Shown here: piece after piece, positions 34,580 through 60,043 of the stretch
How the letters are laid out: the number at the start of each line of letters is the position of its first letter
How positions within the stretch are numbered: the stretch's first letter is position 1
Source: Candidatus Eisenbacteria bacterium
GTDB lineage: Bacteria; Orphanbacterota; Orphanbacteria; Orphanbacterales; Orphanbacteraceae
Direction of reading: 5' to 3'
DNA length: 64,000 nucleotides
Assembly (NCBI GenBank): GCA_016930695.1
Contig: JAFGGD010000054.1
Location: forward strand, 1 to 64,000
Notes under the pieces: model-generated
What the model saw: only the letters and a program-made list of their open reading frames with translations
Database searches by the model: none
Told to the model about the DNA's origin: nothing
Made by a program: the position numbers and the translations under genes

Positions 34580-37500
34580 TCACCGAATCAGCATGAGCCT
34601 TCGAACGCGGCTCTCGCCGCTCCACTCGATCCGTAAAAAGTACACGCCCGAAGCGACCGGCCGGCCGGCGTCGTCCCGGCCGTTCCAAACCACGGCGTGG
34701 GCGCCCGCCTCGCGCGAGCCCTCCACGAGCGTGCGCACCCGGGCGCCGCGAAGGTCATAGACGGCGAGCCGGACCGCGCCCGTCGCGGGCAGTCCGTACT
34801 CGATCGTCGCGTAGGCGTTGAAGGGATTCGGCCGCGCATCGTTCAGGCGGAGTCGCGCCGGCGGAAGCTCCGGCCGGATCGCCGCCACGTCGAGCCGAAG
34901 GGACACCCTCTCCCCGCCCGCGCCGATCATCTCCACCGCCTCCGGCCGCAGCGAGGGCGTCTTCCCCTCGCCGTCGGGCAGGACACGAATGAGATCGTAG
35001 ACGCACGCGCCATCCCCCCTCGCATCGAAAAGGAACACGCCCACCGAGCCGGTTTCCCCGTCCACGGCGACGATCGTCCGGGAGGGATCCGCCGGCAGGG
35101 CGGCGGCCGGATCGCCCTCCTCCACGCGGAATCGCGCGCGGACCGCCCGGAGCGGGAAAGAGGATGTGAGACGGATCACGGGTTCCGCCGAGGCGACGCA
35201 GGCGAACTCCACCTTGCCCGCGCCGGCGGGCGGCGCCGGCGCGCCGGCGGCCAGATCCCGCCCGAGGAGCACCACGTCCGACACATTGATCCGCCCGTCC
35301 CCGTTGGCGTCGGCGCCGAGGCTCTCCTCCGCCGTCGGCGTGAACACGCCGAGCAACGCCTCCAGCAGACGGGTCGCGTCCTCCATCTCGGCGCGGCAGT
35401 CCCAATCGACATCTCCCGCGGGCCGCGGCGGCGGGGCGAGGGAGACATCGAAACCGATCGGCCGGCGGCCGGGAGGAACCGGGTCGGTATCGATGAAGAG
35501 GCTCTCCCGGTACGAAATGCCGCACCGGTACTCGCCGGGGCGGACCCGCACGGTCTCCTTCTCGGCGGCCGCGACCACTCCCGACGGCGGATCGAAAACC
35601 ATCCAATCCCCCGGATCGCTCACGGACCAACCGAGAGATCGGTCGTATCGATTTTCCAGGACGAGCAGGGAATCGACGAAGAGCGTGTCGGAGCCGTTGC
35701 CGAAGGGGAGGCGGGTCGCGCCGGCGATCAGCTCCAGGCCGGGCGCGACGCCGAGACTGAAGACTCGGACCGCCGACGCGGGTCCGGGACCGCAATTGTT
35801 CCAGCCGGAAACGCGCCAGCGATAGGAGCGATAGAACTCGAAGCCGGAGACCTCCGCTTCGTCGCCCGTGACCAGGGAGTCGACGAGCAGCGTGTCGAAG
35901 AGGGGATCCAGCGCCACCTCGAGCCGAACCGCCACGGCGCCCGCGTCGGCGCTCCAGGCGAAAAGCACCGTCGTCTCCAAGTCGGTGGCGCCGTCCGGGG
36001 GCGCCGTCGGCGTCGTCGATCCGGGCGGGCTGATCGCCCGGCCGATCGCCTGGCAGTTGCCGTAGGTTTCGCCGCAGCGGTTCGCGGCCGCGACCCGGTA
36101 GAGGTAATCGAGACCGGCCGTCGGCGTCGTGTCGTCGTAGTCCAGGCCGCCGAGCCCGGGTGGAACGGCGCCGATCTTCACGAACGGCTGCGACGACGGG
36201 GTCTGCTTCCGGTAGATTCGGAACTCGCTCAGCTCGGATCCGATGTAGGCCGGATCCCAATACCAATAGACCCGGACCGTGCCGCAGCGGTTGCTCGATG
36301 CGGAGCACTGCGAGGGCGCCGGCGGAGGCGCGGCCCGGGAGCCGCGGGCGGAGCACGCCGCGGCGGCGACGAAGCATCGGTTTCCGGCGCGAACCGTGTA
36401 GGTGGACGAATCGCCGGCGGCGATGGTCGCGTCCAGGAGGCTGTCCGTCCCCGCGGGAACGTCGGCGAAAACGTGGCCGTCCTTCGACCGAACGACCCGG
36501 TACCATTCGATGTCCGGGGAAGTCCAATTCCAACGGACCGTGATGCCGGCGCAGGCGCCGCGGGTGGCGGTGCAGGCGCCGGCGGGCGCCGGGGCGATCT
36601 CGCCCGGAATGCGAACCGCCGCCGTGCACGCTTCCGCGGACCGCCCGCAGGCGTTGACGGAAAAGATCGTATAGATGTAATCCGTTCCTGAATCGAGCGA
36701 GCCTTGTCCCGCGGCGATTATCCCCGGGCCGACCGAATCGACCGGGCCGGCGCCGTTCCGGAAAAGGACGTAGCCGAGCCCGGCGTCCACCACGGGGCTC
36801 CAGGAAAGGTGGACCGAGTCGCAGGAGGCGATCGAAGCGGCGGCGGACGAGGGGGGCGAGGGGGCCGCTTCGATGGTCCTTCCCGTGTCGCTTACGATCG
36901 GGGATTCCTCGCAGTTGTGGGCGCGAAGGGTGTACACCGCCTCGGCCGGCGCGTCGCCGTCGACGTATTCGTACGAATCGCCGGACAAGACCACCGTCCA
37001 GCCGCCCGCGCCGGTACGGGTCAGCGAGTAGGTCCACACGGGGCCCCCCGTCGCCGGCGGGTTCCAATGCAATTCCACCGCCCGGCACAGATCGCGCGAA
37101 GCGGTGAAGTCGGCCGGCGCGGCGGGCGCCGAAAGGGAAACGCCGCTATCCTCGCACGCCTCGGACCAACCGCAGAGGCTCCAGCCGCGCACGCCGTAGA
37201 GCGCGCGCTCGTTCGACGGCGCCGCGACGTGGGTCAGCGTGTACGGCTCCGTGGTGCGAACGCCGATCGAGTCGCCGTCCCGGTATACCACCCAACGCTC
37301 CACATGCCCCGGTGAGGTGGGGGCGGTCCACGTAACGCGGACCCGGCCGCAAAGACTGTCGCTGGCATCGCAGCTGTTCGCCATCGGAGGAGCGCCCTGG
37401 CGCATGCCGCCGTCCGACACCGAGCCCGGAGAGAATCCGCAGGAGCTTCGTGTGCGAAGCGAGTAGGTCGCCGCCGCCATCGGCGCGACCGACGAATCGC

Positions 37501-39466
37501 GGAAGACCGTCGGGGCGTCCCCCGCGACCGCGCCGAGCGAATCGCCGTCACGGTAAAGGATGTAGCGGAGGATCTCCCATTCCACGGCGCTCCAGGTCAG
37601 CTCCACGTAAGCGCAGAGCGCGTCCGACGCGTCGAAGAGCGCGGGGAGGGGCGGATCGGCGCCGCGCAACCCGTCGTCCGCCGCGGACTGCGCCGAGTAG
37701 CCGCATCGGTTCCAGGCGCGGACCGAGTACTCGTATAGGCTGTCCGGCTCGCCGTTCGTGTCGGACCATGAAAGAGGCGATCCGGTCGCCACGCCGATCG
37801 AGTCGCCGTCCCGGTAGAGGACCCAACGCTCCACGAAACCCGTATCGGGCGACGCGGTCCATGTAACGACCGTCTCGTCGCATCGGTCGTCGGTGGCGTC
37901 GCAGCTCGCGGGCGACGGAGGACGGCCGATCCGCATCCCCGTGTCCGGCCCCGCCGCCTCGGAGAATCCGCAGGCGTTCCAAGCGCGCACCGAGTAGGCG
38001 TGGCGGATCATGGAGTCGGCGCCGGCGTCCGCGAAGGAGGGCATCGCGCCCCGGGCGACCACGCCGACCGAGTCGTCGTCGCGAAAGACCACATAGCGTT
38101 CCACGTCGCCGGCGGTGGTGTCCCAGCTCACCTCCACCGCGGCGCAAAACGAATCCGTCGCCGAAACGGCGGTGGGCGCCGGAGGCAGATCGCGGCGCGA
38201 TCCGGCCGCCTCCGCGGACGAGGCGGTATCGCACAGGCCCGCCGCGTCGACCCGGTACACATGAACCACGCCGCGGGCGACGGATTCGTCGAGCCACGAC
38301 GTCTCGGCCGCGCCCGGCGAGGCGACCAACGTGTCGTTCCGGAACACGCGGTAACCGACGGCGCCCGCCGCCGCCGCCCAGGTGAGGCGCACGCCGGCGC
38401 AGGCGGTGTCCGTCGCCGCGAAGGATCCCGGCGGGGAGGGCGTCCCCGGCGCGAGCCCCGAGTCGGGCGCCGAGTCCCCCGAGGGGCCGCAATCGTTAAC
38501 GCCGCGCACCACGTATTCGTACGCCGCTCCCTCCACCGCCGAGGTGTCGCTCCAGGCGAGTGAGTCGGCGGGAAGGGAGTCCGCGACCACCACGAAACCG
38601 CCCGATCCGGCGGGGCGTCGCGCCACCGCATAGAGAATGCCGGCGGCGGTGGAGGAATCGGCCCAGGCGAGACGAACGCGACCGCAGAGGGTGTCCGTGG
38701 CGGTCAGCCCATAAGGCGGATAAAGTCCCTCGCAGGAAACAACGAAGTCGTCGACGAACCAGCCGCGGAAACCGTTTCGGTTCGGATCGGCCGTGTCGAA
38801 AATAAAACGGAACCGGATCTCACCTTCGGCGCCGGTGCTACAGGAATAAACCTTCTCCTCCCAAACACCGGGCTCGCCGTACCCACCCGAGGTTATCGGC
38901 ACATCGTCCTCGGGCGATGGAGGATACGAGGTGCCGATCACGGTGGCCAAGGGCGTGTAGGCGGCCCCGCTGTCGTCGGAGAACTCCACGTACATCCAGT
39001 CCGTAGAGCCGATGCCGACGCTCTCCACCTCCCACCAGGTCCGGAACCGGATCCGGACTTCTCGGCCCGGCGGGGCGAAGATCACCGGCGTCCAGGCCGT
39101 GTCCCTTCGCGCGGCGAGGGATGTTCCTCCGTTGCCGGCGCTCTGCGCCGCCGGATCCCAGGGCGCCACGTAGGTTCCCGTCGATTCGTCCGCCGCGACG
39201 AGGCAGGCGTTCCCCTCCGCCGCGGCGGGCCACCACCCGTCTTCGGAAAGGGTCACCAGGCTCTCCCGAACCGCCGGGGCTACCTGCACCGTCTCCGGTG
39301 CCGCGGTCCGGTGCCAACCGCCCCGCATCTCCCACCGGAGGGAATCGGCGACTTCGAAGTTTTCCCGATAGGGAAAGGTGGCCGCCCGGGCGGGACGGAG
39401 AAGGGGCGCGAGGAGAAGGGGGAGAAGGATGACGAAGACGCGGGCGCGTCCGCCGATTCCACTCAC
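34580..39466 (-). CDS. giant secreted FN3-repeat protein with dockerin and C-terminal sorting module
   Basis: A 1628-aa exported protein starting with GTG, two bases after the barrel gene stop. Order of parts: signal peptide (1-28); a jelly-roll/MAM-like domain ending RGWFVDDFVVSCE (about 30-250); ten FN3-like repeats of about 88 residues, each with one Cys in the first strands (TDTLCGRVRLAW type) and one near the end (NACG type); an eleventh FN3 without the first Cys; a BACON-like sheet (LGWSVSDPGDWMVFDPPSG); a dockerin-type pair of calcium loops (about 1349-1405; the second, DANGDGRINVSD, is perfect, the first, DVDWDCRAEMED, degenerate); a beta domain; and a FlgD-Ig-like end (RPNPFNAYATIEYGLP to LMLIR). 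It probably acts as a long surface rod or adhesin. Third gene of an operon with a CsgG-like lipoprotein and a barrel. Confidence 0.85.
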   Translation of the reverse strand: MSGIGGRARVFVILLPLLLAPLLRPARAATFPYRENFEVADSLRWEMRGGWHRTAAPETVQVAPAVRESLVTLSEDGWWPAAAEGNACLVAADESTGTYVAPWDPAAQSAGNGGTSLAARRDTAWTPVIFAPPGREVRIRFRTWWEVESVGIGSTDWMYVEFSDDSGAAYTPLATVIGTSYPPSPEDDVPITSGGYGEPGVWEEKVYSCSTGAEGEIRFRFIFDTADPNRNGFRGWFVDDFVVSCEGLYPPYGLTATDTLCGRVRLAWADSSTAAGILYAVARRPAGSGGFVVVADSLPADSLAWSDTSAVEGAAYEYVVRGVNDCGPSGDSAPDSGLAPGTPSPPGSFAATDTACAGVRLTWAAAAGAVGYRVFRNDTLVASPGAAETSWLDESVARGVVHVYRVDAAGLCDTASSAEAAGSRRDLPPAPTAVSATDSFCAAVEVSWDTTAGDVERYVVFRDDDSVGVVARGAMPSFADAGADSMIRHAYSVRAWNACGFSEAAGPDTGMRIGRPPSPASCDATDDRCDETVVTWTASPDTGFVERWVLYRDGDSIGVATGSPLSWSDTNGEPDSLYEYSVRAWNRCGYSAQSAADDGLRGADPPLPALFDASDALCAYVELTWSAVEWEILRYILYRDGDSLGAVAGDAPTVFRDSSVAPMAAATYSLRTRSSCGFSPGSVSDGGMRQGAPPMANSCDASDSLCGRVRVTWTAPTSPGHVERWVVYRDGDSIGVRTTEPYTLTHVAAPSNERALYGVRGWSLCGWSEACEDSGVSLSAPAAPADFTASRDLCRAVELHWNPPATGGPVWTYSLTRTGAGGWTVVLSGDSYEYVDGDAPAEAVYTLRAHNCEESPIVSDTGRTIEAAPSPPSSAAASIASCDSVHLSWSPVVDAGLGYVLFRNGAGPVDSVGPGIIAAGQGSLDSGTDYIYTIFSVNACGRSAEACTAAVRIPGEIAPAPAGACTATRGACAGITVRWNWTSPDIEWYRVVRSKDGHVFADVPAGTDSLLDATIAAGDSSTYTVRAGNRCFVAAAACSARGSRAAPPPAPSQCSASSNRCGTVRVYWYWDPAYIGSELSEFRIYRKQTPSSQPFVKIGAVPPGLGGLDYDDTTPTAGLDYLYRVAAANRCGETYGNCQAIGRAISPPGSTTPTAPPDGATDLETTVLFAWSADAGAVAVRLEVALDPLFDTLLVDSLVTGDEAEVSGFEFYRSYRWRVSGWNNCGPGPASAVRVFSLGVAPGLELIAGATRLPFGNGSDTLFVDSLLVLENRYDRSLGWSVSDPGDWMVFDPPSGVVAAAEKETVRVRPGEYRCGISYRESLFIDTDPVPPGRRPIGFDVSLAPPPRPAGDVDWDCRAEMEDATRLLEALLGVFTPTAEESLGADANGDGRINVSDVVLLGRDLAAGAPAPPAGAGKVEFACVASAEPVIRLTSSFPLRAVRARFRVEEGDPAAALPADPSRTIVAVDGETGSVGVFLFDARGDGACVYDLIRVLPDGEGKTPSLRPEAVEMIGAGGERVSLRLDVAAIRPELPPARLRLNDARPNPFNAYATIEYGLPATGAVRLAVYDLRGARVRTLVEGSREAGAHAVVWNGRDDAGRPVASGVYFLRIEWSGESRVRRLMLIR

Positions 39467-39468
39467 GG

Positions 39469-41987: not shown

Positions 41988-42155
41988 TTCCCGTCTCGCC
42001 TCTTCGTCGGGGTTTCCGGGGATAGGAGCGCCCCATCCCCACGTCCGACCGTCCCTACCATAACACTTCCGAACGGCCGGTTTCCACGGGAAGGGGGGGC
42101 GGGATCCGTCAATAATCGCCGCGCAGGATTCTTAATAACAGGACAAGGGGGCGCA

Positions 42156-42189
42156 AAAAGGGCCCCGGAGGCGATTTCCCCCGGGGCCC
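42156..42189 (-). terminator. intrinsic terminator after the Omp28-like gene
   Basis: Stem GGGCCCCGG (42160-42168) with CCGGGGCCC (42181-42189). On the minus strand it is followed by CTTTTTGCG. It lies about 30 bases past the stop. Confidence 0.88.
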
Positions 42190-42217
42190 CGTCGTGATTC
42201 GATCGAAGCCGATCTCG

Positions 42218-43707: not shown

Positions 43708-44784
43708 ATGAACCCATCCTCCTTACTTCCCGATCCGGACGCGATCCCCGTTCCCTGGCCCTGGTTTAAAATTCTCCTCCTCATCACGTTCATCCTGCAC
43801 CTGCTCTTCATGAATCTGACCCTCGGCGGCAGCCTGGTCGCCTCATGGAACACTCTCCGGCGCCGGGAAAGAAGGCCCGAGTTCCGCTCCATTCCGATCC
43901 TGATCGCCCTCACCGTCAACTTGGGAGTGCCTCCGCTGCTTTTCGCACAGGTGCTCTTCGGCCATTTCCTCTACACGAGCTCGATCGTGATGGCGGCGTG
44001 GTGGATCGCCGTGGTTCCGGTCCTCCTTGTCGCCTACTACGCGGCATACCTCTACGTGTATAAAGGGAAAGGGTCACACCGCTGGGCGGTCTTTTCGAGC
44101 GTGCTTTCCTCGCTCCTTCTCCTCGCCGTCGCCTTCCTTCTCGTGAACAACCTCACCCTCTCCCAGACTCCGGAACGATGGACCGCCTGGTTCCACGCGC
44201 CGGGCGGCACGAGCCTCAACCTGGGGGATTTCTCGCTCTACCCGCGCTTTCTCCACTTCGTTCTCGCCTCCCTCGCCGTGGCCGGGCTCGGTTCGGCGGT
44301 CTGGTACGCCGTTAAGGGTCGACGCGAGAGAAGCGCCCCCGCGACTTACGAAACGGAGAAACGGGCGGGGCTCCGCCTCTTCTCGATCGCCACCATGATT
44401 CAAGTGCTGGTCGGTGTCTGGTTCCTGATCGCTCTTCCGCGCCCCGTGATGCTCGCGCTCATGGGGGGGAGCGCCGCAGCCACGACGGTGTTTCTCCTCG
44501 CCGTCGCCGCCGCCCTCGCCGCGCTCTTCTTCGGTTTCCGCGGCTCCCTCGCCCCCGCCGTCGGCGCCACACTACTCACCGTGATCCTCATGGCGATCCT
44601 GAGGGATCAGGTCCGGGGCGCTTACCTGGAGGGTCTCTTCCACCCGCACGACCTCGAGGTGATCCCGCAGTACGCCCCGCTCCTTCTCTTCCTGGCCGTC
44701 TTCCTCCTGGGGCTCGGCGGGATCGGCCTGATGGTCCGCATCGCCTGGAAAGCGACGGCGAAGGCGGGAGGGAGCCGGTCATGA
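43708..44784 (+). CDS. CydA-like polytopic membrane subunit (probable b-haem quinol protein)
   Basis: A 358-aa inner-membrane protein with about eight helices. Its first helix reads LITFILHLLFMNLTLGGSLVASW, with a central His and a GG pair. The N-terminal part of the next gene's product has the same layout (AVIAILHVYIAHLAVGGGFFLVW), so the two are paralogous partners. Both resemble the quinol-oxidising half of bd-type oxidases but lack the GRQPW tag. The His residues are candidate haem b ligands. GGAGGTCGTCG precedes the ATG. The stop overlaps the next start in ATGA. I infer a membrane quinol dehydrogenase feeding the fused cytochrome c. Confidence 0.65.
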   Translation: MNPSSLLPDPDAIPVPWPWFKILLLITFILHLLFMNLTLGGSLVASWNTLRRRERRPEFRSIPILIALTVNLGVPPLLFAQVLFGHFLYTSSIVMAAWWIAVVPVLLVAYYAAYLYVYKGKGSHRWAVFSSVLSSLLLLAVAFLLVNNLTLSQTPERWTAWFHAPGGTSLNLGDFSLYPRFLHFVLASLAVAGLGSAVWYAVKGRRERSAPATYETEKRAGLRLFSIATMIQVLVGVWFLIALPRPVMLALMGGSAAATTVFLLAVAAALAALFFGFRGSLAPAVGATLLTVILMAILRDQVRGAYLEGLFHPHDLEVIPQYAPLLLFLAVFLLGLGGIGLMVRIAWKATAKAGGSRS

Positions 44785-47435
44785 ATTATCCCTTCTGGCA
44801 TATTCCGACCGTGGGCGGCGGCGTTCTGATCGCCGTCATCGCCATCCTTCACGTCTACATCGCCCACCTCGCCGTCGGGGGTGGTTTCTTTCTGGTCTGG
44901 ACGGAGCGGCTCGCCCGCCGCCGAAACGACGACGCCCTCTTCGAATACGTCCGCCGCCACACCTGGTTCTTTCTGCTCCTCACCATGGTCTTCGGCGGAA
45001 TCAGCGGCGTCGGCATCTGGTTCATCATCGCCCTGGTTCACCCCGCCGCGACCTCCGCGCTGATCCACGCGTTCGTCTTCGGATGGGCGATCGAGTGGGT
45101 ATTCTTCGTCGTCGAGATCACGGCGCTTCTCCTCTATCACTATCTCTTCACACGCCTCTCCGGCCGAGCGCACATGGCGATCGGTTGGGTCTACTTCGGC
45201 GCCGCCTGGCTCTCCCTCTTCATCATCAACGGCATCCTCGCCTTCATGCTCACCCCCGGCCGCTGGCTCGAGACCGGATCCTTCTTCGACGGTTTCTTCA
45301 ATCCTTCATTCTGGCCGAGCTTGATTTACCGAACCGCGTTCGCCCTCACCGTGGCGGGACTCTTCGGATTGATCACGGCGGCCTTCTCCCGCGGCACGCG
45401 TCTCGAAAATTCGCTCTACCGTTACTGCGCCCGTTTCACCCTCATCCCCTTCGTCGGGATGCTCCTCTCCGGATATTGGTTTCTCCGCACGCTCCCCGGG
45501 GAAGCGGCGGCGAACCTGCTTCACCTCAACCCGGAGGCGGAGTTCTTCGTCGCCGCCTTCCTGTTGGGGGCGGCCCTCATCTTCCTCGGCGGCCTCTCGA
45601 TGCTCTCGTCCATGTCACGGCCGGCCCGCCGCGCCTCCGTGCTTCTCCTCGTGTTGATCGGCCTCGGGTGGATGGGGGGCATGGAGTACATTCGCGAGAT
45701 CGCCCGCAAACCCTTCGTCATCTACGACCACATGTACTCCACGTCCGTGCTCGTCTCCGACGCAGAGCGCTTGAACAACGAAGGGTTCCTGGCGAACGCG
45801 AAATGGGTCGCCCACAAAGAGGTAACGGACGAGAACCGTCTCGATGCGGGCCGCGAGCTGTTCGTTCACCAATGTCTGATCTGTCACACCGTCGGCGGAT
45901 ACAACGACGTATCCGCGAAGACCGCCGGCCTGGACGCCTTCGCCCTCTCGGTCCGCTTGAACGGCCAGGGGAAAGCGCGCACCTACATGCCCCCCTTCGC
46001 CGGCACGACCGCGGAGAGAGAGGCGCTGGCCGCCTACGTCGCCGAGGGACTCCATGGCGTCGCGCCGGTGGAACGGCCGCCGGTCGCCGTCGCGCGGGAG
46101 GAGATGGACCCGCTCCCCTTCGATCCGTCCCGCGCCGAATACGTTCTCCTCGCTTGGAACGATCTGGGGATGCACTGTATCTCCGACAACGACCGTTACT
46201 TCGTGATCCTACCGCCGGCGAACACGCTCTACGCCCAGCTGATCCGGCGCGGGCCGAAACCCGTCATCGTCTCCGGGGGCGTGGAACTGACCTACGCGCC
46301 CGAAGCGGGATACATGCGCCCCGAGAGCCACGTCCCCTTCTGGGAGTTCGCGTCCTCCAACTTCGGCGTCGCGCTGGAGCCGGGAGTGGGTTTGAAGGGG
46401 AACCGCGTGACCGGTGCCCTGGAGTATCAAGCCGCGCAGAAGGCCTATGTGGCCGAGGCGATCCCCGTCGTTCCCTATCGGGACGAGCGCCCCTACAATC
46501 CCTACCCGGTCTTCACCGTCGAAGCGCGAGACCGGAAAACGGGCGGGCTGCTGGCGTCCACCCGGACGGTGGTGCCCACCACCACCGAGATGGGGTGCCT
46601 GAACTGCCACGGGGGCGAGTGGCGCGTCGGCGGCGTGTCGGGGATCGGCGACATCACCGCCGAGAACATTCTTGCCGTGCATGACCGGTCCCACGGCACG
46701 GACCTGCTCGTCGGCGCGCGGGAGGGAGCGCCGAGGCTCTGCCAGAGCTGCCACCCGGATCCCGTGCTCGGCGCGAAGGGCGCGCCGGGAATGATGAGCC
46801 TTTCCGCGTCGCTTCATGGTTTTCACGCGAACTATCTGCGCGGCTACGGCGTCCGGGCCTGCAACGCCTGCCACCCGAACCACCCGGACGGAGTCACCAA
46901 GTGCCTCCGCGGCGTGCACCCGCAGAGGCGCGTCTCCTGCACCACCTGCCACGGCGACATCGAGGAGCACGCCCTCGCGCTGCTTCTCCGCGAGAGAGAG
47001 CTGGGGCGGCCCCAGGCGGAGCGTTACATCCGCAATCTCCGTCCCCTTTCGGTCGCCTCCATCGACGAGATCCACTCGCGTACTCCCTGGTTGAACGAGC
47101 CGGACTGCCTCAACTGTCACCCGGAGTACGCGCGGACGCCGGACCGGACGAAACTCGCCTCCTACAACAAGTGGGTCCCCGCCGGGGAGATGCTCTTCCG
47201 CAACCGAGGCGACGCCCGGGGGATTCTCTGCGCCACCTGCCACGGCGCGCCCCACGCGATCTACCCGACCCGGAACATGTACGGCGAGGACAGGGACAAC
47301 CTCGGGCCGCTCCAGTATCAGGGGAACAGAAACGTCATCGGCCGCGGCGACAACTGCGCGCTTTGCCACACCCGTAAGATGCCCTGCAACGCGCACCACC
47401 CCGGCGTGCTGCGCGGAAGCGAAGGAGGCCGATAG
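44781..47435 (+). CDS. CydA-like membrane domain fused to eight-haem cytochrome c
   Basis: An 884-aa fusion. Residues 1-300 form about eight membrane helices with His24/His29 in the first (ILHVYIAHLAVGG). A single-haem cytochrome c domain follows (CLICH at 365-369, likely axial Met403 in TYMPPFAG). A beta-rich segment has AWNDLGMHC near 458-466. Then come seven more CxxCH sites (CLNCH 606, CQSCH 654, CNACH 694, CTTCH 720, CLNCH 776, CATCH 817, CALCH 859), eight in all. The soluble part must lie in the periplasm to receive haem c. This looks like a quinol-to-multihaem conduit for respiration with an external or periplasmic acceptor; the acceptor is not identifiable. A nitrite or other small-molecule reductase role is an alternative. 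Confidence 0.75.
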   Translation: MNYPFWHIPTVGGGVLIAVIAILHVYIAHLAVGGGFFLVWTERLARRRNDDALFEYVRRHTWFFLLLTMVFGGISGVGIWFIIALVHPAATSALIHAFVFGWAIEWVFFVVEITALLLYHYLFTRLSGRAHMAIGWVYFGAAWLSLFIINGILAFMLTPGRWLETGSFFDGFFNPSFWPSLIYRTAFALTVAGLFGLITAAFSRGTRLENSLYRYCARFTLIPFVGMLLSGYWFLRTLPGEAAANLLHLNPEAEFFVAAFLLGAALIFLGGLSMLSSMSRPARRASVLLLVLIGLGWMGGMEYIREIARKPFVIYDHMYSTSVLVSDAERLNNEGFLANAKWVAHKEVTDENRLDAGRELFVHQCLICHTVGGYNDVSAKTAGLDAFALSVRLNGQGKARTYMPPFAGTTAEREALAAYVAEGLHGVAPVERPPVAVAREEMDPLPFDPSRAEYVLLAWNDLGMHCISDNDRYFVILPPANTLYAQLIRRGPKPVIVSGGVELTYAPEAGYMRPESHVPFWEFASSNFGVALEPGVGLKGNRVTGALEYQAAQKAYVAEAIPVVPYRDERPYNPYPVFTVEARDRKTGGLLASTRTVVPTTTEMGCLNCHGGEWRVGGVSGIGDITAENILAVHDRSHGTDLLVGAREGAPRLCQSCHPDPVLGAKGAPGMMSLSASLHGFHANYLRGYGVRACNACHPNHPDGVTKCLRGVHPQRRVSCTTCHGDIEEHALALLLRERELGRPQAERYIRNLRPLSVASIDEIHSRTPWLNEPDCLNCHPEYARTPDRTKLASYNKWVPAGEMLFRNRGDARGILCATCHGAPHAIYPTRNMYGEDRDNLGPLQYQGNRNVIGRGDNCALCHTRKMPCNAHHPGVLRGSEGGR

Positions 47436-51160: not shown

Positions 51161-54100
51161 TCAGCGCAAGAGGGTCATGCGGATCGCCCGGGTTCTCGCG
51201 CCGCACTCGACCCGGCAGAAGTAGGTCCCCGACGCGACCGGCTCGCCGGCGCGGTTCCGGCCGTCCCACGCCGCGACCCGCCAGCCCGAACGCTCCGGAC
51301 CCTCGGCGAGCACCGCCACCACGCGCCCGGAGAGATCGTAGACGACGACGCGAACGTCGCCCGGTTCGGGCAGGTAGAAATGGATCTCCGTAAACGGGTT
51401 GAAGGGGTTGGGCCGATTCGGTACGAGGCGGAGTTCCTCCGCGCGGCCGACGGAGGGCGACCCCGCGGCGAGGAAGCGTTGGCCCTCCGCGCCGCCGCCG
51501 AGAACGAGCCGTTCCACCCGCAGTCGCTCCGGCGGCTCGGCCCCTTCCCATTCCAGAATGATCCGCGCCTCGCCCGGCCCCGCCGCCGGGAGAAGGCCGC
51601 CCCCTTCGACGGTGAAGAGCGCTCGGATAAAACCGCCGGCAACCGCCCGCCACGCCCGGACCGAACCGTCGTCCGCCGCGTCGGCGGAGATGAGGCGTCC
51701 CGAACCGCCCGCGCTCCTCACCTCGAGATAGCACGCCGCCGCCCCGCTCCCGACCGGTATGTCGAGGATCAGGCGGAACCGGCCGGGAAGATCGCCCGGC
51801 TCGGCGGCGACTCCGATCCGCGCCGGCAGGAGAGCGGTCTCCGCCGCGGGCGCGCTCGGACCTTGCTCGACGAGAGCGTGGCCGAGCATCACCATGTCCG
51901 CCACGTTGAAACGATAGTCGCCGTTCAGGTCGACGAGGTCGATCGGCAGAGGCGCGACGCCGCGGAGCCCGATCAGGATCGAATCGGCGAGGAGCACATC
52001 GCGAAGGTCGCGCCGGTAATCGCCGTTCAGGTCGCCGAAGGGGCGAAGCGCCGGCTGGGTCGTGAAGGCGATGGACCGCCTCCCTTCAATCGGGCGGCCG
52101 TACGCGTCCCGCAGCCCGTCGAAGAGAAAGAGATAGTCCGCGCCGAAAGCGAGAGGGGACGCCGGCTCGAAGAAAAGCACGGCGCCGTTCTCCTCGAGGC
52201 GGGCCTCTCCCGCCGTTTCCGTGTCCCCCCGGAGAAGGCGGACCGACGCGAGGCCCTCCGGATCGATGGGGAAGTTGAATTGCACGCGGATCACCACGTC
52301 CGCCGGCGTCTCGATCTCGCCGTCGAGGGGCCGCGTCGCGAGCGCCGCCGGCGCGGCGCCGCCGACGGAGAAGGCGCGCCAAGCCGAGGGAACGCCGACC
52401 CCGCAGCCGCTCCGCGTGGCCGCCCGCCAGCGATAGGAGCCTCCCGGCTCCACGCCGAAAAGGAGGAACGCCGTCTCGCCGGCGCCGAGGGTCGTGTCCG
52501 TGGTCGCGGCGCCGCCCGCCGCGGGCTCCACCCGCACCGTGTATCCCGCCGCTCCTTCCACCGCCGACCACCGGAGCGTGACCGGCACCGGTAGATCCGC
52601 CGCGTCCTCCTCGGGCGCTTCCTGCACCGGCGGAGCGAGACCGGGCAGGGAAGCGCCGGCGACGGGACCGCTCCGTTCCGAGGCGCCGCAATGGTTCTCC
52701 ATGGCCGCCTCATATGCGTAGGTCACGCCGTCGGTCACCGTCGAATCGACGAAAAACGTGTCCGGCGGCTCTACCTCGGCGATCCGCCCGCCGTCCCGGT
52801 AGACCGCCACCCTCTCCGTTGCCGACCCGCCCGCGCGCCAGGCGAGGCGCACCCGCCCGCATAGGCCCTGCGACGCCGTGAGGCCCACCGGCGGATCCGG
52901 GCTTCCGGCGACGAAGACGATCCATGGGTCGCTCTTCTCACCGAATCCGCAGGCGCCGCGCGCCCGGATCCGGAAGGCGCGCTCCCCTTCCGCGGCGGCG
53001 AGCCCGCCCCACTCGGTCGTGCCCGCGCCGAGAGTCGCCAGCGGGAACTCCTGCGACCCCACCGTTTCCGAGAGCCGGTAATCGAGCGCTCCCTCCCAGG
53101 GTTCCCAGAAAAGATAGAAGCTGTCCCCCACGCAGGATGCGGCGTCGGAATCCGAGGTGAACCGCCCGCGCGGCGCGGTGGGCAGGAATCCCCCGTCGTC
53201 CCTCGAGGTCTCCTCCGGCAGCGAAACGCCGCAGACGTTGACGGCACACACTTCATATGTATATGTTCCCTCGCCTCCCCGATCGACGAAACGCCGCGAC
53301 GCCGGCGGCAGGGAATCGGCGACCACGATGGTCGTGTCGTTTCGAGCCCGGCGCACCTCGATCCGGCGAATCGTGGCGTCGGAGGAGGGGAAGCTCCAGG
53401 TCACGACCACGCTGTCGCAGAAACCGTTCGAGGCGGTGACCGACGCGGGCGACGCGGGCCGGATCCGGGGCCGGAGAAGCGCCACGGCGGTCCCTTCCGA
53501 CTCGCCGCAGCCGTTGAAGCCGTGAAGCTGGTAGGTCACCGCCCGCCCCGGCGAGTCGACGAAACGCCCGTCGCCCGGTCCGCTCCACACCGGAGCGACC
53601 CGGTCGGAGCGATAGATGCGCACGCTGTCCTCCTGCGCCTCCCATTCGATCACCACGGAATCGCAGAAAGAGGAGTCGAGGATCACGCCGGACGGGGGCG
53701 AGGGCGCCTCGCCGACGAGGAGGACCCAAGGATCGGAAGGTTCGCCCTCACCGCAGCCGCTTCGCGCAATCACTTCATAAACGAAGGTCCCGAGGCCGTT
53801 CGGCAAGAGCGGGAAAGCGATCGTGTCGACGACGGCGACGAGAGAGCCCGCCTCCCGAAGCAGGTACTCCTCCGCCCCCTCCACCTCGGTCCAACGGAGC
53901 AGGTAGGGGACACCGGCGCAGGCGGCGGATTGCGGGTTATCCCAGGTCGGAGAGCCGGGCCGCGTCTCGGCCCAGCCCGTGTCCGGCGCGCCGACCGCTT
54001 GGGCGCAGCGGCCCAGCGCCCGCACGCGATAAACGTAACGCCTGCCGGCCGCCGCGTTTCGATCCACCGCGCGGAAGGGGGACGAAGGATCGGTCACGGC

Positions 54101-57100
54101 GATGACGGATGTCAACGGCCCGTCGTAACGAACGACGCGGAAGGAATCCACCGCCACCGCGTCGCCGTTCCAATCCCACTTCACCTCCACCGAATCGCAC
54201 AGTCCGTCGCTCGCCGTCACGTTGTCGGGCGCATCCAGGGCGAGGGGGAAGGCGTATCCGCTCACCGTGTCCGACGCGGCGAGCGTGTCGCAGGCGTTCC
54301 AACCGCCGATCGGATAGCTCCGAGCGCCTCCCTCGGGAAGGGAGTCGGTCCACGTCTCCGGTCCGTCCAAAAAGACCGTGCCCGTGCCCGTTTCGATCCA
54401 GACGCCCCCCGTCCCCACGGATGTCCAGCCGAGACGGATCGCGCCGCAACGGTCGCCGGTCGCCGAGGGAGAGGCGGGCGCCTCGGGAAGAACCTGGATC
54501 TCCACCTCGCGGACGCCGCTCCATTCACCCGCGCCGCAAGCCCCCGTCGCGCGCACGCGGAAGGCCGATGTCCCGGCGTCCGGGCGCGTCAATGTCACGC
54601 TCGTGTCCGTGGTGTTCGTCGTTCCCGCCTCCATCTCTTCCAGTTCGTAGGAGAGCGCCCCTTCGACCGGCCGCCAGGAGAGAGTGAAGGGACGGCCGCC
54701 GCACACCTCCGCCGGCAGGGCGGTGAAGTCCGCCGGCACGCCCGGCGCGCCCCGCCGCACCCCCGCGTCCACGCTTCCCGCCGTCTCCGGAGAAGAGCCG
54801 CACTCGTTGAAGGCGACCACGCGGTACTCGTAGCTCCCCGGCGCGGGCGCGTGGACGTATCGGAGGGGCGCCCCGTACACGACGCCGACGGGCTCCCAGT
54901 TCGGCGTCTGCGCCGGGTCGCGGAAGGAGACGACGAAGCTGTCGATCATTTCCCCGGCCGGGTAGCTCCACGTGACGAGGATGTCGTCGCACCGGTCGTC
55001 GCTCGCGGAGACGTCGGTCGGCGCCATGGGATAGCCCAGGATCCTCTCCCCCATGACGGGACCGGCGGACCCCACGCCGCAGGAGTTGTACGCCTCGATC
55101 CGATACGTGTGAGTCCCGCTCTCCACGGCGTTGTCCTCGTAGGAAGTGGTGTTCGGTCCGAGGACGATGATCGGGATCCCCGCGCCGTCCCGATAGATCC
55201 GATAGCCGTCCTCGTTCGCCGTGTCGTTCCAGGAGACACGGATGTGCTTGCAGTTGTTGTCCGTGGCGTTCGGATTTTCGGGAGGCGCCGGCGCGTCCGG
55301 CGGGCGCGAGCCCGCGTCGGCGTCGCTGAAGCCGGAGACGTCGCAAGAATTATAGGCTTTCACTTTATAGAGGTGCGTTCCCGGCGACGCCTCGCCGTCC
55401 GCGAAGAGGGGCGATTCGGTGACGGCGATCATCACGTTGTCCCGGAAGACGCGGTAGCCGTCGGCGTGGGCGGAGCGGAGCCAATCCACGCGGATGGAGC
55501 CGCAGTTTCCATCGCCCGCGGAGACGCCCACCGGCGGGGCGGGCCCGTCCCACGGTCGGATCCCCGTCGCCCAGGAGCCGAACGCCGGCTCGGGATGGCA
55601 GCCGTTGAAGACCCCCACCCCGTACTCGTAGACGGCGCCCGTGTCGGCCGTGAAGTCCTCGAAGAAGGTCGCGTCCGCGCCCAGCGTGTCGAGGGCGACC
55701 CCCTCTTCGTCCTGGCGGCGCACCACGACGTAGCCCGCCTCCCAATCCACATCGGACCAGGAGAGACGGACGCCGCCGCAGATCGAGTCGGCGTCGAGGT
55801 CGACGACCGGCGGCGGCGCGGGAAGGAGAAAACCCTCGGCGGAGTCGCCGAAGGAAGGGGCGGCGGAACAGCCGTTGAAGGCGCCGACACGGTAAACGTG
55901 CGTCCCGGGCGTCGCCGCTTCGTCCAACCAGGAGAGGGTCTCCGCGGGGAGCGTGTCGGCCGCCGCCTCGTCCCGGAGCACCACGTACCACTCCTCGTTC
56001 TCCACGTCCGTCCAGGAGACGAGTATTCCGTCGCACCGGTTCGTGGAAGCGCCGGTCGAGTCGGGGGCGGCGGGCGGGCCGGGCGGACGGGCGCCCGTGA
56101 CGGCGCCGCTCTCCTCCGAGACGCCGCAGGAGTTCGAGGCGCGCACCGTGTAGAGATAGGAGGCGCCCGCGAGCGCGGTGTCGTCGCGGTACAGGGTGTC
56201 GGCCGTGGCGCCGAGCGGGATGCCTTCGCGGAGGACGTCGTACGATATCGCGTCCGCCGCCGGAGACCAGGCGACGAAAACGAAACCGCAGGAGTCGCTC
56301 GAAGCGGAGAGTCCGGCCGGCGGCTGGGGCGGATCGGGGGGCCGTGTACCCGAGTCCTGCGCGGCGGGGGAGTCGCCGCAGCGGTTCCGCGCCGCCACGG
56401 CGTAGAGATAGGCGTCGGGCGGAGCCGTGTCGACCAGGGTCGTCTCGGCGATCACCGCGACGGGGATTCCGTCTCGGTAGACCGCGTAGGAGTCCGCGTC
56501 GGCGACGGCGCCCCAGACGAGGCGGACGAAGCCGCAGGAATCGTCGGACGCGGCGAGCGCGGCGAGCGGCGGCGGCGGGCCGAGTGAGAGCCCGATCGAG
56601 GCGGTCGAGTCGGACCACCCGCATCGGTTTCCCGCCGAGACGGCGTAGGCGTAGCCGCCCGGCGGAACCGAATCTTCATAGGTGAAGATCGTGGCGCCCA
56701 GCGTCGCCGCCGGCGCGCCGTCCCGCCACACGCGGTAGCTGTCCGCGTCGGCCGAGGCGCTCCAGGACACGACGATCCGCGCGCAGGCGGTGTCGCTCGC
56801 CGTCACCGCCGAGGGCGCGGCGGGGACGCCGAGCACGCGTCCCTCGGCGACGGTGGAATCGGACCAGCCGCAGGTGTTCCGGCTGGACACGCCGTAGAGA
56901 TACGCGCCCGGAGCGACCGTGTCCCGATAGGCGGCGGCCGGCGCGTCCAAAGCGGCGATCGGCGCGCCGTCCCTCCACACCCGGTAGCTGTCCGCGTCTG
57001 CGACCGCATCCCAGGCGACGAACACGAAGAGACAGGAGGTGTCGCTCGCCGCCACCGCCGCGGGGGGGACGGGCGCGGGGAGCGTCGACCCCTCGGCGAC

Positions 57101-58945
57101 GGTGGAATCGGACCAGCCGCACCGGTTCCCCGCCGAGACGCCGTAGAGATAGGCTCCGGAGGCGACCGTGTCCTCGTATGCGGTGGCCGCGCCGTCCAGC
57201 GTCGCCGCCGGCGCGCCGTCCCGCCACACCCGGTAACTGTCCGCGTCCGCCGAGGCGCTCCACGTCACATAGATAAAGGAGCAGGAAGTGTCGCTCGCCG
57301 CCACCGCCGAGGGCGCGGCGGGGATCCCGGCGGAGGTTCCGGAGGCGACCGCCGAGTCGGACCAGCCGCAGGCGTTCCCGGCGGAAACGCCGTAGATGTA
57401 TGTCCCGGCGGCGATGGAGTCCACCCAGGAGAGGGCGGCGCCGTCCAGAATCGTCACCGGCGCGCCGTCCCGCCACACCCGGTAGCTGTCCGCGTTCGCC
57501 GAGGCGCTCCAGTCGAGGCGCACCGCGCCGCAGAGGGTGTCCGTGGCGACGATCGTCGCCGGAGCCCCGGGCCCGATCAGTATCTTCACCTCCCAAGGAT
57601 CGCTCTCGGGGCCCGCGCCGCAGTGGTTTTCGGCGCGCACCCGAAAGAGATGCGCCCCGGGGCCGTCCAGAGAACCGACCCAGGAGGTGTCGGCGCCGAC
57701 CGGGGTCTCGATGGCGCCCTCGATCACGGTGTAGGAGGTCGCGCCTTGGACGCCCTTCCAGACGAGCCGGAAGGGAGCGCCTGCGCACCCCTCGGCGTCG
57801 CTTTCGGAGGTGAAGGCGGGCGCGCCGGCGGGCGGGGCGTCGCGGCTCCCCTCGTCCTGGCTCGCCGCCGCGGCGGGGGTGCAGCCGCAGTGGTTGCAGG
57901 CGGCCACGTAATACGCGTATGTCCCCGGCGCCGGGGCGTGGGCGACCCGATAGGGGGGCGCCGTCACCGCGCCCACGCGGATCCACGCGGGCGCTCCGCC
58001 CACCTCGCGGTGATAGACGATGAAGCTGTCCGCGCCGGCCGGCTCCGTCGCCGTGGCCCAGGTCACGACGATGCTGTCGCACCGGCCGTCGGAGGCTTCG
58101 ACGTTCACCGGCGATTCGGGATAACCGAAGATCCTCTCTCCCGCCGCCGTCCCCCCCGAGGCCTCGCCGCAACGGTTCACCGAGGCGACCCGGTAGGAGT
58201 GGGTCACCCCCGCCTCGACCGTCTCGTCCGCCCAGGCGGTCGCGTCCGCCGGAGGCTCGGCGACGGGAGTCGCCGCGCCGTCCCGGTAGATCCGGTATCC
58301 CTCCTCGTCCGGCGCGTCCGTCCAGGTCACGAGGATGAAGTGGCAGCTCGTGTCCGACGCCGCGACGCTCCCCGGCGGCGCGGGAAGATCGAGCCGCTCA
58401 CCCGTCGCCGTCGCCGAGTCGGACCACCCGCAGGCGCTCCCGGCGGAGACGCCATAGAGGTACGGTCCCGGCGGCGGCCCGTCCTCGTAAAAGAGGACCG
58501 TGGCGTCCACCGTGGCGATCGGCGCGCCGTTCCGCCATACCCGGTAACTGTCCGCCTCCGCCGAGGCGCTCCAATCCAAACGGACCATCGCGCATGAGGT
58601 GTCGCTCGCCGAGATCGAAGCGGGAGCGGAAGGGGTCGACGGCCGGAAACCGGTCACGTCGGCGCTGTCGCCGAGGCCGTGGGAGCCGAAGCCGGCCACC
58701 CAGTACTGGCTCGAACCGGCCGGAGCAAGTGTGTCCCGGAAGAAAAGATCCTGCACGTGGAAGACGTTCGTCCCGCGCCTCACATAAAAAGAGTCCGCGT
58801 CCGGGAGCGAATCCCAGGAGAGGTAAATCCCCCAGCAGCTGTCGGTCGACGCGGCGAGGCCGGTCGGCGGGGGAAGGTCTCCCTCGGCGGCCGACAACGA
58901 CGGTAAAAGCGCCGCCATGAGGGCGATAAAGACCGCGCGTTTCAT
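51161..58945 (-). CDS. giant secreted FN3-repeat protein with Big_5, dockerin and C-terminal sorting module
   Basis: A 2594-aa exported protein. A signal peptide (ending SLSAA) is followed by about 25 FN3-like repeats of 80-95 residues (about 22-2190). Nearly all have one Cys early (SDTSC..V..W) and one late (GNRCGWSD), suggesting a disulfide in each. Repeats 6-9 are near-identical (DADSYRVWRDGAP) and lie exactly 249 bases apart. Next come a Big_5/SbsA-type Ig domain (about 2192-2297), a dockerin pair of calcium loops (DLNGDYRRDLRD and DLNGDYRFNVAD, about 2300-2355), a beta domain and a FlgD-Ig-like end (RPNPFNPFTEIHFYLP to MTLLR). GGAG lies eight bases before the ATG, and a near-consensus promoter lies upstream. 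Likely a fibre or scaffold on the surface. A cohesin-like lipoprotein is encoded directly upstream. Confidence 0.88.
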   Translation of the reverse strand: MKRAVFIALMAALLPSLSAAEGDLPPPTGLAASTDSCWGIYLSWDSLPDADSFYVRRGTNVFHVQDLFFRDTLAPAGSSQYWVAGFGSHGLGDSADVTGFRPSTPSAPASISASDTSCAMVRLDWSASAEADSYRVWRNGAPIATVDATVLFYEDGPPPGPYLYGVSAGSACGWSDSATATGERLDLPAPPGSVAASDTSCHFILVTWTDAPDEEGYRIYRDGAATPVAEPPADATAWADETVEAGVTHSYRVASVNRCGEASGGTAAGERIFGYPESPVNVEASDGRCDSIVVTWATATEPAGADSFIVYHREVGGAPAWIRVGAVTAPPYRVAHAPAPGTYAYYVAACNHCGCTPAAAASQDEGSRDAPPAGAPAFTSESDAEGCAGAPFRLVWKGVQGATSYTVIEGAIETPVGADTSWVGSLDGPGAHLFRVRAENHCGAGPESDPWEVKILIGPGAPATIVATDTLCGAVRLDWSASANADSYRVWRDGAPVTILDGAALSWVDSIAAGTYIYGVSAGNACGWSDSAVASGTSAGIPAAPSAVAASDTSCSFIYVTWSASADADSYRVWRDGAPAATLDGAATAYEDTVASGAYLYGVSAGNRCGWSDSTVAEGSTLPAPVPPAAVAASDTSCLFVFVAWDAVADADSYRVWRDGAPIAALDAPAAAYRDTVAPGAYLYGVSSRNTCGWSDSTVAEGRVLGVPAAPSAVTASDTACARIVVSWSASADADSYRVWRDGAPAATLGATIFTYEDSVPPGGYAYAVSAGNRCGWSDSTASIGLSLGPPPPLAALAASDDSCGFVRLVWGAVADADSYAVYRDGIPVAVIAETTLVDTAPPDAYLYAVAARNRCGDSPAAQDSGTRPPDPPQPPAGLSASSDSCGFVFVAWSPAADAISYDVLREGIPLGATADTLYRDDTALAGASYLYTVRASNSCGVSEESGAVTGARPPGPPAAPDSTGASTNRCDGILVSWTDVENEEWYVVLRDEAAADTLPAETLSWLDEAATPGTHVYRVGAFNGCSAAPSFGDSAEGFLLPAPPPVVDLDADSICGGVRLSWSDVDWEAGYVVVRRQDEEGVALDTLGADATFFEDFTADTGAVYEYGVGVFNGCHPEPAFGSWATGIRPWDGPAPPVGVSAGDGNCGSIRVDWLRSAHADGYRVFRDNVMIAVTESPLFADGEASPGTHLYKVKAYNSCDVSGFSDADAGSRPPDAPAPPENPNATDNNCKHIRVSWNDTANEDGYRIYRDGAGIPIIVLGPNTTSYEDNAVESGTHTYRIEAYNSCGVGSAGPVMGERILGYPMAPTDVSASDDRCDDILVTWSYPAGEMIDSFVVSFRDPAQTPNWEPVGVVYGAPLRYVHAPAPGSYEYRVVAFNECGSSPETAGSVDAGVRRGAPGVPADFTALPAEVCGGRPFTLSWRPVEGALSYELEEMEAGTTNTTDTSVTLTRPDAGTSAFRVRATGACGAGEWSGVREVEIQVLPEAPASPSATGDRCGAIRLGWTSVGTGGVWIETGTGTVFLDGPETWTDSLPEGGARSYPIGGWNACDTLAASDTVSGYAFPLALDAPDNVTASDGLCDSVEVKWDWNGDAVAVDSFRVVRYDGPLTSVIAVTDPSSPFRAVDRNAAAGRRYVYRVRALGRCAQAVGAPDTGWAETRPGSPTWDNPQSAACAGVPYLLRWTEVEGAEEYLLREAGSLVAVVDTIAFPLLPNGLGTFVYEVIARSGCGEGEPSDPWVLLVGEAPSPPSGVILDSSFCDSVVIEWEAQEDSVRIYRSDRVAPVWSGPGDGRFVDSPGRAVTYQLHGFNGCGESEGTAVALLRPRIRPASPASVTASNGFCDSVVVTWSFPSSDATIRRIEVRRARNDTTIVVADSLPPASRRFVDRGGEGTYTYEVCAVNVCGVSLPEETSRDDGGFLPTAPRGRFTSDSDAASCVGDSFYLFWEPWEGALDYRLSETVGSQEFPLATLGAGTTEWGGLAAAEGERAFRIRARGACGFGEKSDPWIVFVAGSPDPPVGLTASQGLCGRVRLAWRAGGSATERVAVYRDGGRIAEVEPPDTFFVDSTVTDGVTYAYEAAMENHCGASERSGPVAGASLPGLAPPVQEAPEEDAADLPVPVTLRWSAVEGAAGYTVRVEPAAGGAATTDTTLGAGETAFLLFGVEPGGSYRWRAATRSGCGVGVPSAWRAFSVGGAAPAALATRPLDGEIETPADVVIRVQFNFPIDPEGLASVRLLRGDTETAGEARLEENGAVLFFEPASPLAFGADYLFLFDGLRDAYGRPIEGRRSIAFTTQPALRPFGDLNGDYRRDLRDVLLADSILIGLRGVAPLPIDLVDLNGDYRFNVADMVMLGHALVEQGPSAPAAETALLPARIGVAAEPGDLPGRFRLILDIPVGSGAAACYLEVRSAGGSGRLISADAADDGSVRAWRAVAGGFIRALFTVEGGGLLPAAGPGEARIILEWEGAEPPERLRVERLVLGGGAEGQRFLAAGSPSVGRAEELRLVPNRPNPFNPFTEIHFYLPEPGDVRVVVYDLSGRVVAVLAEGPERSGWRVAAWDGRNRAGEPVASGTYFCRVECGARTRAIRMTLLR
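56585..57575. repeat. tandem array of four near-identical 249-bp FN3 units
   Basis: The segment CGCGCCGTCC-type anchor recurs at 56714, 56963, 57212 and 57461, exactly 249 bases (83 codons) apart. A fifth related copy is at 58523. The ends given are approximate. Other repeats of the gene are much more diverged, so these four were copied or homogenised recently. Confidence 0.85.
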
Positions 58946-58990
58946 GCGAATGGCTCCGATGAGGCAGGTTGAACGCTATAACTCATTGAA

Positions 58991-59020
58991 ATTATATCAG
59001 AACGACCACGAGTTGGTCAA
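58991..59020 (-). promoter_or_regulatory. near-consensus sigma-70 promoter of the 2594-residue gene
   Basis: On the minus strand: TTGACC, 18-base spacer, perfect TATAAT. Initiation near 58984 would give a leader of about 38 bases. It separates the giant's transcription from the cohesin-like gene upstream, though read-through is possible. Confidence 0.8.
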
Positions 59021-59053
59021 TCGCCCCCGGCGCGCCCGGGCGACGCGGCGCCT

Positions 59054-59998
59054 CTACTCCGTGATGATCAGCAGGCCGTTGGTCGTGTCCGTGACGGCGA
59101 TGTCGGAGCTGCCCGACGGCGTGGAGAAGAACACGTCTTCCAGGGAGAGACGGATCGTGTCGGGCAAGACCGGGAACTGGTCGCCGAGGTCCACCCGCAC
59201 GAAGAAGAGCAGGTCGTTGCCGGGCGGGATCGATTGGAGCGGTTCGAAAAGAGAGTCCCCCCTGAGGTCGACGGTCACCACCCGCAGCGTGGAATCCGTG
59301 GGCTGCGCGAAGTGGGAGCCGATCAGCGAGTCCGCCGAGGCGCCCGTGAAGAGACGGCTCGAAGGGTCGACCTCGATCCCCTCCACCGATTCGATCGTCC
59401 TCCCATCGAAACGAATCTGGAACTGGAGCCCGCCGATGGCCGCTCCGTTTTTCAGCACGATCGGCAGGCCGTGGTCCCTGGCGCCGGAGACCGCTTCGCT
59501 GTTCGCCACGGAGAGCCCGAAGGCGTCGGCGGGCGGCGCGCCCGGCTCGGTGAGCACCATGGTCAGGTTCTTCCGGTCGCCGGGTGCGAGCGTAACGGTC
59601 CTTTCCCCCGCCACTTTCTCGCGACCGATGGCGCCGACGTAGGAGAAGCGGGTCGCCACGCGGAAGACACGCTCCTCGGTCAGGTCGACCCGAAGGGGAG
59701 CGCGATAAACCGCGTCCTCGGATTGGGAGACGAGGTCGGCTCGGGCGGCGAGAGGGAAAGACTCGGGCTCGTCGGTGTAACGATCGCCCGTGATGTCGTA
59801 GAGACGGACGGAGAGGGAATCGGTCGCCTGTGTTTTTCGGGCGTCGTCACCCGAAAAGACCTGGACGCGCACGTCGAGGCCGGCTTCACCGGCCGGGTCG
59901 AGAGGTCCGGCGTCCAGACAGCCGGACAGACGGAGCGCGGCGGCGAGGGCGGCCGCGACGAGCGCCGCGCGGGCCGATTTTCGTGCAAAGAACGCCAT
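59054..59998 (-). CDS. lipoprotein with cohesin-like domain
   Basis: A 314-aa lipoprotein (hydrophobic run then LSGC, Cys27). Residues about 40-150 form a beta-rich domain (VRVQVFSGDD, SVRLYDITGD, RVFRVATRFSYVGA). Residues about 160-314 resemble a cohesin: GLPIVLKNGAAIGGLQFQIRFDGRTIESVEGIEV, then VVTVDLRGDSLF and LLFFVRVDLG, ending in SDIAVTDTTNGLLIITE. Cohesins bind dockerins, and the next gene downstream ends in a dockerin. I therefore infer an outer-membrane receptor for the giant. Only a distant GGGGAGG lies before the ATG at 59998; an upstream ATG at 60043 would hide the lipoprotein signal. Confidence 0.72.
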   Translation of the reverse strand: MAFFARKSARAALVAAALAAALRLSGCLDAGPLDPAGEAGLDVRVQVFSGDDARKTQATDSLSVRLYDITGDRYTDEPESFPLAARADLVSQSEDAVYRAPLRVDLTEERVFRVATRFSYVGAIGREKVAGERTVTLAPGDRKNLTMVLTEPGAPPADAFGLSVANSEAVSGARDHGLPIVLKNGAAIGGLQFQIRFDGRTIESVEGIEVDPSSRLFTGASADSLIGSHFAQPTDSTLRVVTVDLRGDSLFEPLQSIPPGNDLLFFVRVDLGDQFPVLPDTIRLSLEDVFFSTPSGSSDIAVTDTTNGLLIITE

Positions 59999-60043
59999 GG
60001 CTGAAGAATCGCCTCCCCGGGGCGGTGTCGCCCCGCACACCAT

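Follow-up and report, generated by a model that had tools for sequence, protein, structure and literature searches.

Within the first half of contig C54 (127,884 bases), part of a draft genome of 3.78 Mb and 96% completeness, two neighboring minus-strand open reading frames encode a 2594-aa giant secreted dockerin protein (51161..58945) and a 314-aa cohesin lipoprotein (59054..59998), which we read with moderate confidence as a non-cellulosomal pair in which a giant fn3 rod, exported by T9SS, is held on the surface of an uncultured diderm bacterium by the cohesin of the lipoprotein. The 64-kb stretch analyzed is called the window here, and its features lie on the minus strand unless noted; both frames are where the preliminary description had placed them. 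One cohesin and one dockerin that are adjacent, conserved and set in a T9SS background offer a minimal system for testing non-cellulosomal function, testable with two small recombinant domains, and if the reading is true, the pair would represent non-covalent, calcium-dependent surface retention of T9SS-exported giants. Cohesins and dockerins are widespread beyond cellulosomes, and two earlier studies (PMC5244752, PMC9012536) describe their role there as largely unknown.

The lipoprotein starts at ATG 59998, inside a longer frame that begins at 60043, and opens with a type II signal peptide and the lipobox LSGC (59918..59998; Cys27), recognized by eye in the sequence and in the homologues. The lipobox Cys is present in every homologue with an intact N-terminus in alignment A1, which comprises the window protein and 10 homologues from five related genomes. 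Leu, not Asp, follows Cys27, which by the E. coli +2 rule would direct the protein to the outer membrane, where it may be exposed on the outer face. Behind the signal peptide lie a predicted N-terminal beta-sandwich spacer (residues 38-150, 59549..59887), recognized from the strands of an AlphaFold2 (AF2) model and from Ig/pilin-type Foldseek matches, and the cohesin domain (residues 158-314, 59057..59527). Searched alone, the lipoprotein had no match in Pfam or NCBIfam, the curated cut-off of PF00963 included, and phmmer against the PDB returned chance matches only. Among the members of A1, Pfam Cohesin was the sole family matched (5 of 11 members, best E 7e-4), and the top six PDB matches to a profile of the domain were all cohesins, at weak E-values of 0.13-0.41. 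The AF2 model has a mean pLDDT of 74, with the cohesin domain mostly at 80-91 except for two loops, and its nine best Foldseek matches in the PDB are cohesins (E down to 5e-7, prob 1.00; TM-score by target length, TMt, 0.72-0.79), sharing the nine-stranded beta-sandwich of that fold. Because the Pfam matches in homologues, the profile and the structure agree, we assign this C-terminal domain a predicted cohesin fold, as had been proposed from its look.

The giant's counterpart is a dockerin at residues 2303-2361 (51863..52039), which contains the loops DLNGDYRRDLRD and DLNGDYRFNVAD. By itself this segment scores 12-15 bits against Pfam PF00404, under the cut-off of 22.9 bits, and the lipoprotein alone has no Pfam match, so that both identifications rest on homologues and structure. 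Profile A3, built from 11 sequences of the matching segment, matched three dockerins of known structure (4fl4, 1clc and 1daq; E 2e-11 to 3e-8); in the profile, D1 and D12 are invariant in both loops, as are N3 and D5 in loop 2. Each calcium loop (D-x-N/D-x-D...D) is followed by a helix, at residues 120-130 and 154-167 of an AF2 model of the last 400 residues of the giant. The two calcium loops that the preliminary description had seen at the giant's end thus form a true two-loop dockerin, although not a terminal one, since a beta domain and a T9SS/FlgD-type tail follow. At position 6, where Gly is the norm in dockerin calcium loops, both loops have Tyr, so calcium binding may be weak, which counts against anchoring. 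The same Tyr fits the idea that the folds are coincidental or vestigial, with cohesin and dockerin as generic secreted modules and the giant held by the T9SS machinery only; the dockerin would then be a calcium-stabilized linker and the cohesin-like domain a beta-sandwich spacer. We consider this improbable, largely on the genomic evidence described below.

Most of the giant consists of an array of approximately 24 fn3-like repeats of about 84 aa (52361..58879), most with two Cys, and with 54 Cys in the whole protein (51161-58945) the repeats probably form a long, disulfide-stapled rod. Toward the C-terminus there follow a Big_5 Ig-like domain (52058..52354; Pfam), the dockerin, a cohesin-like domain directly 3′ of it (51437..51862; AF2 and Foldseek) and a T9SS type A sorting/FlgD-Ig domain (51164..51418; TIGR04183 and FlgD_ig). 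Pfam matches of the giant to RGI_lyase and GH85_C were rejected as enzymes, being short accessory beta-domain matches inside the fn3 array.

The sorting domain, at 27.9 bits against a TIGR04183 cut-off of 23 bits, has the character of a T9SS cargo signal, and the genome encodes the translocon components SprA (above cut-off for PF14349; a fragment also matched TIGR04189 at E 4e-43) and PorV, with eight matches to the latter family above cut-off. Together with 124 FlgD-type tails in the genome, the SprA and PorV-family proteins make T9SS export of the giant well supported by inference. Those 124 tails also show that such export needs no cohesin, a point in favor of coincidental folds, and other mechanisms can retain T9SS cargo, which weighs against anchoring by the lipoprotein.

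For the pairing itself, we compared genomes of the same family, which are Ca. Eisenbacteria-type MAGs whose labels read Candidatus Eisenbacteria, Gemmatimonadetes or simply bacterium. Each of the nine testable cohesin lipoproteins of the family is followed on the same strand by a dockerin giant, in eight cases directly, whereas chance adjacency is estimated at about 0.1% for each (some four dockerin genes in approximately 3300), although neighboring genes inside one family are non-independent observations. The family lipoproteins, complete or partial, fall into two paralogous groups. Group 1 immediately precedes the fn3 giant, in the same orientation, in the source genome, G001, G002 and G005; in G003 it also precedes the giant, but a glycosyltransferase gene and part of a second lipoprotein copy intervene. 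A different dockerin giant immediately follows group 2 in G001, G002, G004 and G005, and the stop and start codons of this pair overlap in G002 and G005. Outside the nine are group 1 of G004 and one G005 contig, both of which stop at contig ends, and in G006, of the same family, the lipoprotein was not detected, a point against anchoring. The pair is therefore kept in relatives twice over, as two paralogous sets, as the note's anchoring proposal required. Because the pairing is conserved in this way, the lipoprotein is probably what keeps the giant attached to the surface, through a putative cohesin-dockerin contact. This linkage also argues against coincidental folds, as does the scarcity of the modules: profile searches of the 3.8-Mb source genome found just three dockerin ORFs and one lipoprotein-type cohesin. 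By the same searches, other family genomes had 3 to 5 dockerin ORFs and two or three cohesin matches. The family dockerin ORFs are large and have a T9SS-type tail, except for a short G005 fragment and a 34-position partial match in G003.

Two of these loci showed local irregularities. On G003 contig C87 (L019:9540-12498), the partial lipoprotein copy, which covers the last 65 residues at 63% identity, is directly before the giant, and the glycosyltransferase gene separates it from the intact copy in what looks like an insertion with duplication. On G001 contig C72 (L024:11900-12440), the second dockerin giant seems frameshifted at its 5′ end, where one frame encodes the signal peptide and some 90 residues before a stop; this may be an assembly error.

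Between the two genes of the window, a promoter-like element, TTGACC-18-TATAAT (58991..59020; 11/12, with 0.2 expected), precedes the giant, and comparable elements occur in the corresponding gap of G001, G002, G003 and G005, which suggests that in pair 1 the giant is transcribed separately. A structured RNA in this gap was rejected (fold z-score 0.58, no Rfam match). The gene arrangement bears on a further alternative, that the lipoprotein faces the periplasm or the surface and acts as a chaperone or assembly factor, whose cohesin catches the dockerin while T9SS export is under way, or once it is complete, and later releases it. The order of lipoprotein first and giant second, in the family and in the unrelated genome G009, and the T9SS context agree with such a role, but the promoter-like element speaks against strict co-production. 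The cohesin-dockerin complexes known so far rank with the tightest of protein pairs, and such tightness suits permanent docking better than catch and release; we regard a transient export partner as very unlikely.

The main rival to anchoring comes from the giant's own C-terminus, where the dockerin is directly followed by a 142-residue beta domain and then by the T9SS tail. When the AF2 model of the C-terminal 400 residues (mean pLDDT 81) was searched with Foldseek, 2w1n (cohesin+FN3) ranked first, and the cohesins 2vo8 (TMt 0.68 over 141 columns) and 2jh2 came further down. Since 141 columns approximate the length of the 142-residue domain, and since the order of cohesin and then fn3 corresponds to that of the domain and the FlgD-Ig tail, these matches fit the post-dockerin domain best; going by this model, the giant itself probably contains a cohesin-like domain. 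Lying beside the dockerin, this domain could occupy it, which counts against anchoring by the lipoprotein. The dockerin would then pair with its own chain, as a C-terminal clamp, or between chains, as a head-to-tail polymer, and the lipoprotein would bind something else. The Foldseek cohesins are consistent with such self-pairing, as is the order of dockerin, beta domain and T9SS tail in every dockerin giant whose C-terminus was examined. It also has parallels elsewhere: in our survey of 386 sampled genomes with the Pfam cohesin and dockerin families, cohesins occurred in 68, of which 45 had dockerins too, and the two modules recur within a single ORF in many other bacteria (e.g., G045, G077, G083, G093, G204, G286 and G306). 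Self-pairing nevertheless leaves unexplained why a separate cohesin lipoprotein accompanies the giants, both in the two paralogous sets and in further lineages, and the post-dockerin domain is poorly conserved, with no near-invariant column. Moreover, hhalign found no match between it and the lipoprotein cohesin, so the two are alike in fold only. We therefore judge self-pairing unlikely, and the domain may instead be a structural neighbor of the dockerin or a recruiter of a further dockerin protein. The T9SS tail gives the giant an export route, and the cohesin-like domain gives its dockerin a rival partner.

Under the preferred anchoring reading, the giant would leave the cell through SprA, and the lipoprotein, lipidated and facing outward, would bind the giant's dockerin through its cohesin with calcium. 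A fibre so held would have its C-terminal end at the membrane and its rod pointing outward, and it might serve adhesion or cell-cell contact.

Elsewhere in the window, a second dockerin giant of 1628 aa (34580..39466) consists of fn3 domains, a dockerin (35243-35419) that exceeds the Pfam cut-off of 22.9 bits with 28.8 bits at 35252-35419, a beta domain and a T9SS tail, and no cohesin lipoprotein adjoins it. Three dockerin giants thus stand against one cohesin lipoprotein in the genome, and two of the three are without such a neighbor, which weighs against anchoring and fits coincidental folds. No multi-cohesin scaffoldin was found in the genome, where the search yielded one lipoprotein-type cohesin and no Pfam Cohesin match, and none of the three strong dockerin ORFs, with their fn3, Ig-like and beta-propeller domains, is a polysaccharide-degrading enzyme; the system is therefore not a cellulosome, and the glycoside hydrolases that the preliminary description had reported missing are likewise absent from these ORFs.

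Several other genes were noted around these proteins. The second giant stands in a row on the minus strand (34580-43273) with an Omp28-like thioredoxin that has a T9SS tail, a TPR lipoprotein-like gene and an outer-membrane-like protein, and G004 (L092) has the same gene order; in G001, G002, G004 and G005, a similar TPR gene, accompanied by the outer-membrane-like gene where resolved, is divergent beside lipoprotein 2. The third giant (source genome contig C59, L031:4961-9892) combines beta-propeller and fn3 domains with a T9SS tail and adjoins a glycerol-3-phosphate dehydrogenase-like gene, with no cohesin neighbor. On contig C5 of the source genome (L030:416-3946), a gingipain-family C25 peptidase (Pfam 2e-53) has a weak dockerin-like end and no T9SS tail; G002 (L104) encodes a protein of similar C-terminus beside a 258-aa protein with a cohesin and a T9SS tail. 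On the plus strand of the window, 44781-47435 encodes a fusion-like protein of 884 aa, a multiheme cytochrome by its many CxxCH heme motifs, which also has membrane helices; a related membrane protein (43708-44784) adjoins it.

Among loci selected for reading in the wider survey, cohesin lipoproteins adjoin secreted giants in the unrelated lineages G009, G361 and G378, parallels that favor the anchoring reading. For G009, a 201-aa lipoprotein (Cohesin 7e-9) is 15 bp from a 1123-aa vWA protein with a dockerin-like segment, a next domain that looks cohesin-like by eye and a T9SS tail; G361 has a 2597-aa fn3/FG-GAP giant (Dockerin_1 1.4e-5) with the cohesin lipoprotein 9 nt downstream; and the 174-aa lipoprotein of G378 overlaps an M6-peptidase gene cut by the contig end. 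Other selected loci, including those of G064 and G203, have a cohesin lipoprotein with no obvious dockerin neighbor. It is possible, if doubtful, that diderms have a general mode of surface display, distinct from cellulosomes, in which a single-cohesin outer-membrane lipoprotein is the dedicated receptor of an adjacent T9SS-exported dockerin giant and the giants are networked by their dockerin-cohesin tandem. G232 has several small proteins of about 190 aa with one cohesin each, seen on its contig C10 (L110:3691-6232) in a type II/IV pilus-like cluster.

Among known systems, cohesin/dockerin adhesins in syntrophic bacteria provide a precedent (PMC10553843), and non-cellulosomal cohesins and dockerins occur in ANME archaea and their syntrophic sulfate-reducing partners, going by the accessible portions of PMC10553843, PMC9012536 and PMC5244752. 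As presented there, those systems resemble ours in being surface or adhesion modules with no cellulose link, in including Gram-negative cells and in having a function inferred from genomes; the ANME scaffoldin-like proteins, however, have several cohesins each as opposed to one here, and the same portions make no mention of an outer-membrane lipoprotein whose cohesin is paired one-to-one with a T9SS-tailed fn3 giant. For Ca. Stygibacter (Cloacimonadota), a cellulosome-like complex with a T9SS-tailed cohesin scaffoldin was proposed (PMC8542988), similar in its diderm host and in cohesin/dockerin proteins that use a T9SS-type C-terminal domain for surface attachment. There, the tail is on a 3755-aa scaffoldin with many cohesins and the dockerins are on enzymes (PMC8542988), whereas here the tail is on the dockerin giant, a single cohesin is on the lipoprotein, and no enzyme was found. 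The best profile match of the lipoprotein domain, the Archaeoglobus fulgidus cohesin 2xdh (E 0.13), also a strong match in fold (TMt 0.72), is likewise non-cellulosomal but is archaeal, with neither a lipoprotein anchor nor an fn3 giant. By comparison, the cohesin-FN3 construct of Clostridium perfringens GH84C (2w1n, with the related cohesins 2vo8 and 2jh2) has a cohesin and then an fn3-like domain, as after the giant's dockerin, but these cohesins belong to glycoside hydrolases of a Gram-positive, and no dockerin precedes them in that construct. Non-cellulosomal cohesin/dockerin systems are already known; what is new here is that a cohesin lipoprotein and a T9SS-tailed dockerin giant are paired one-to-one, an arrangement for which we found no description in the open-license papers searched.
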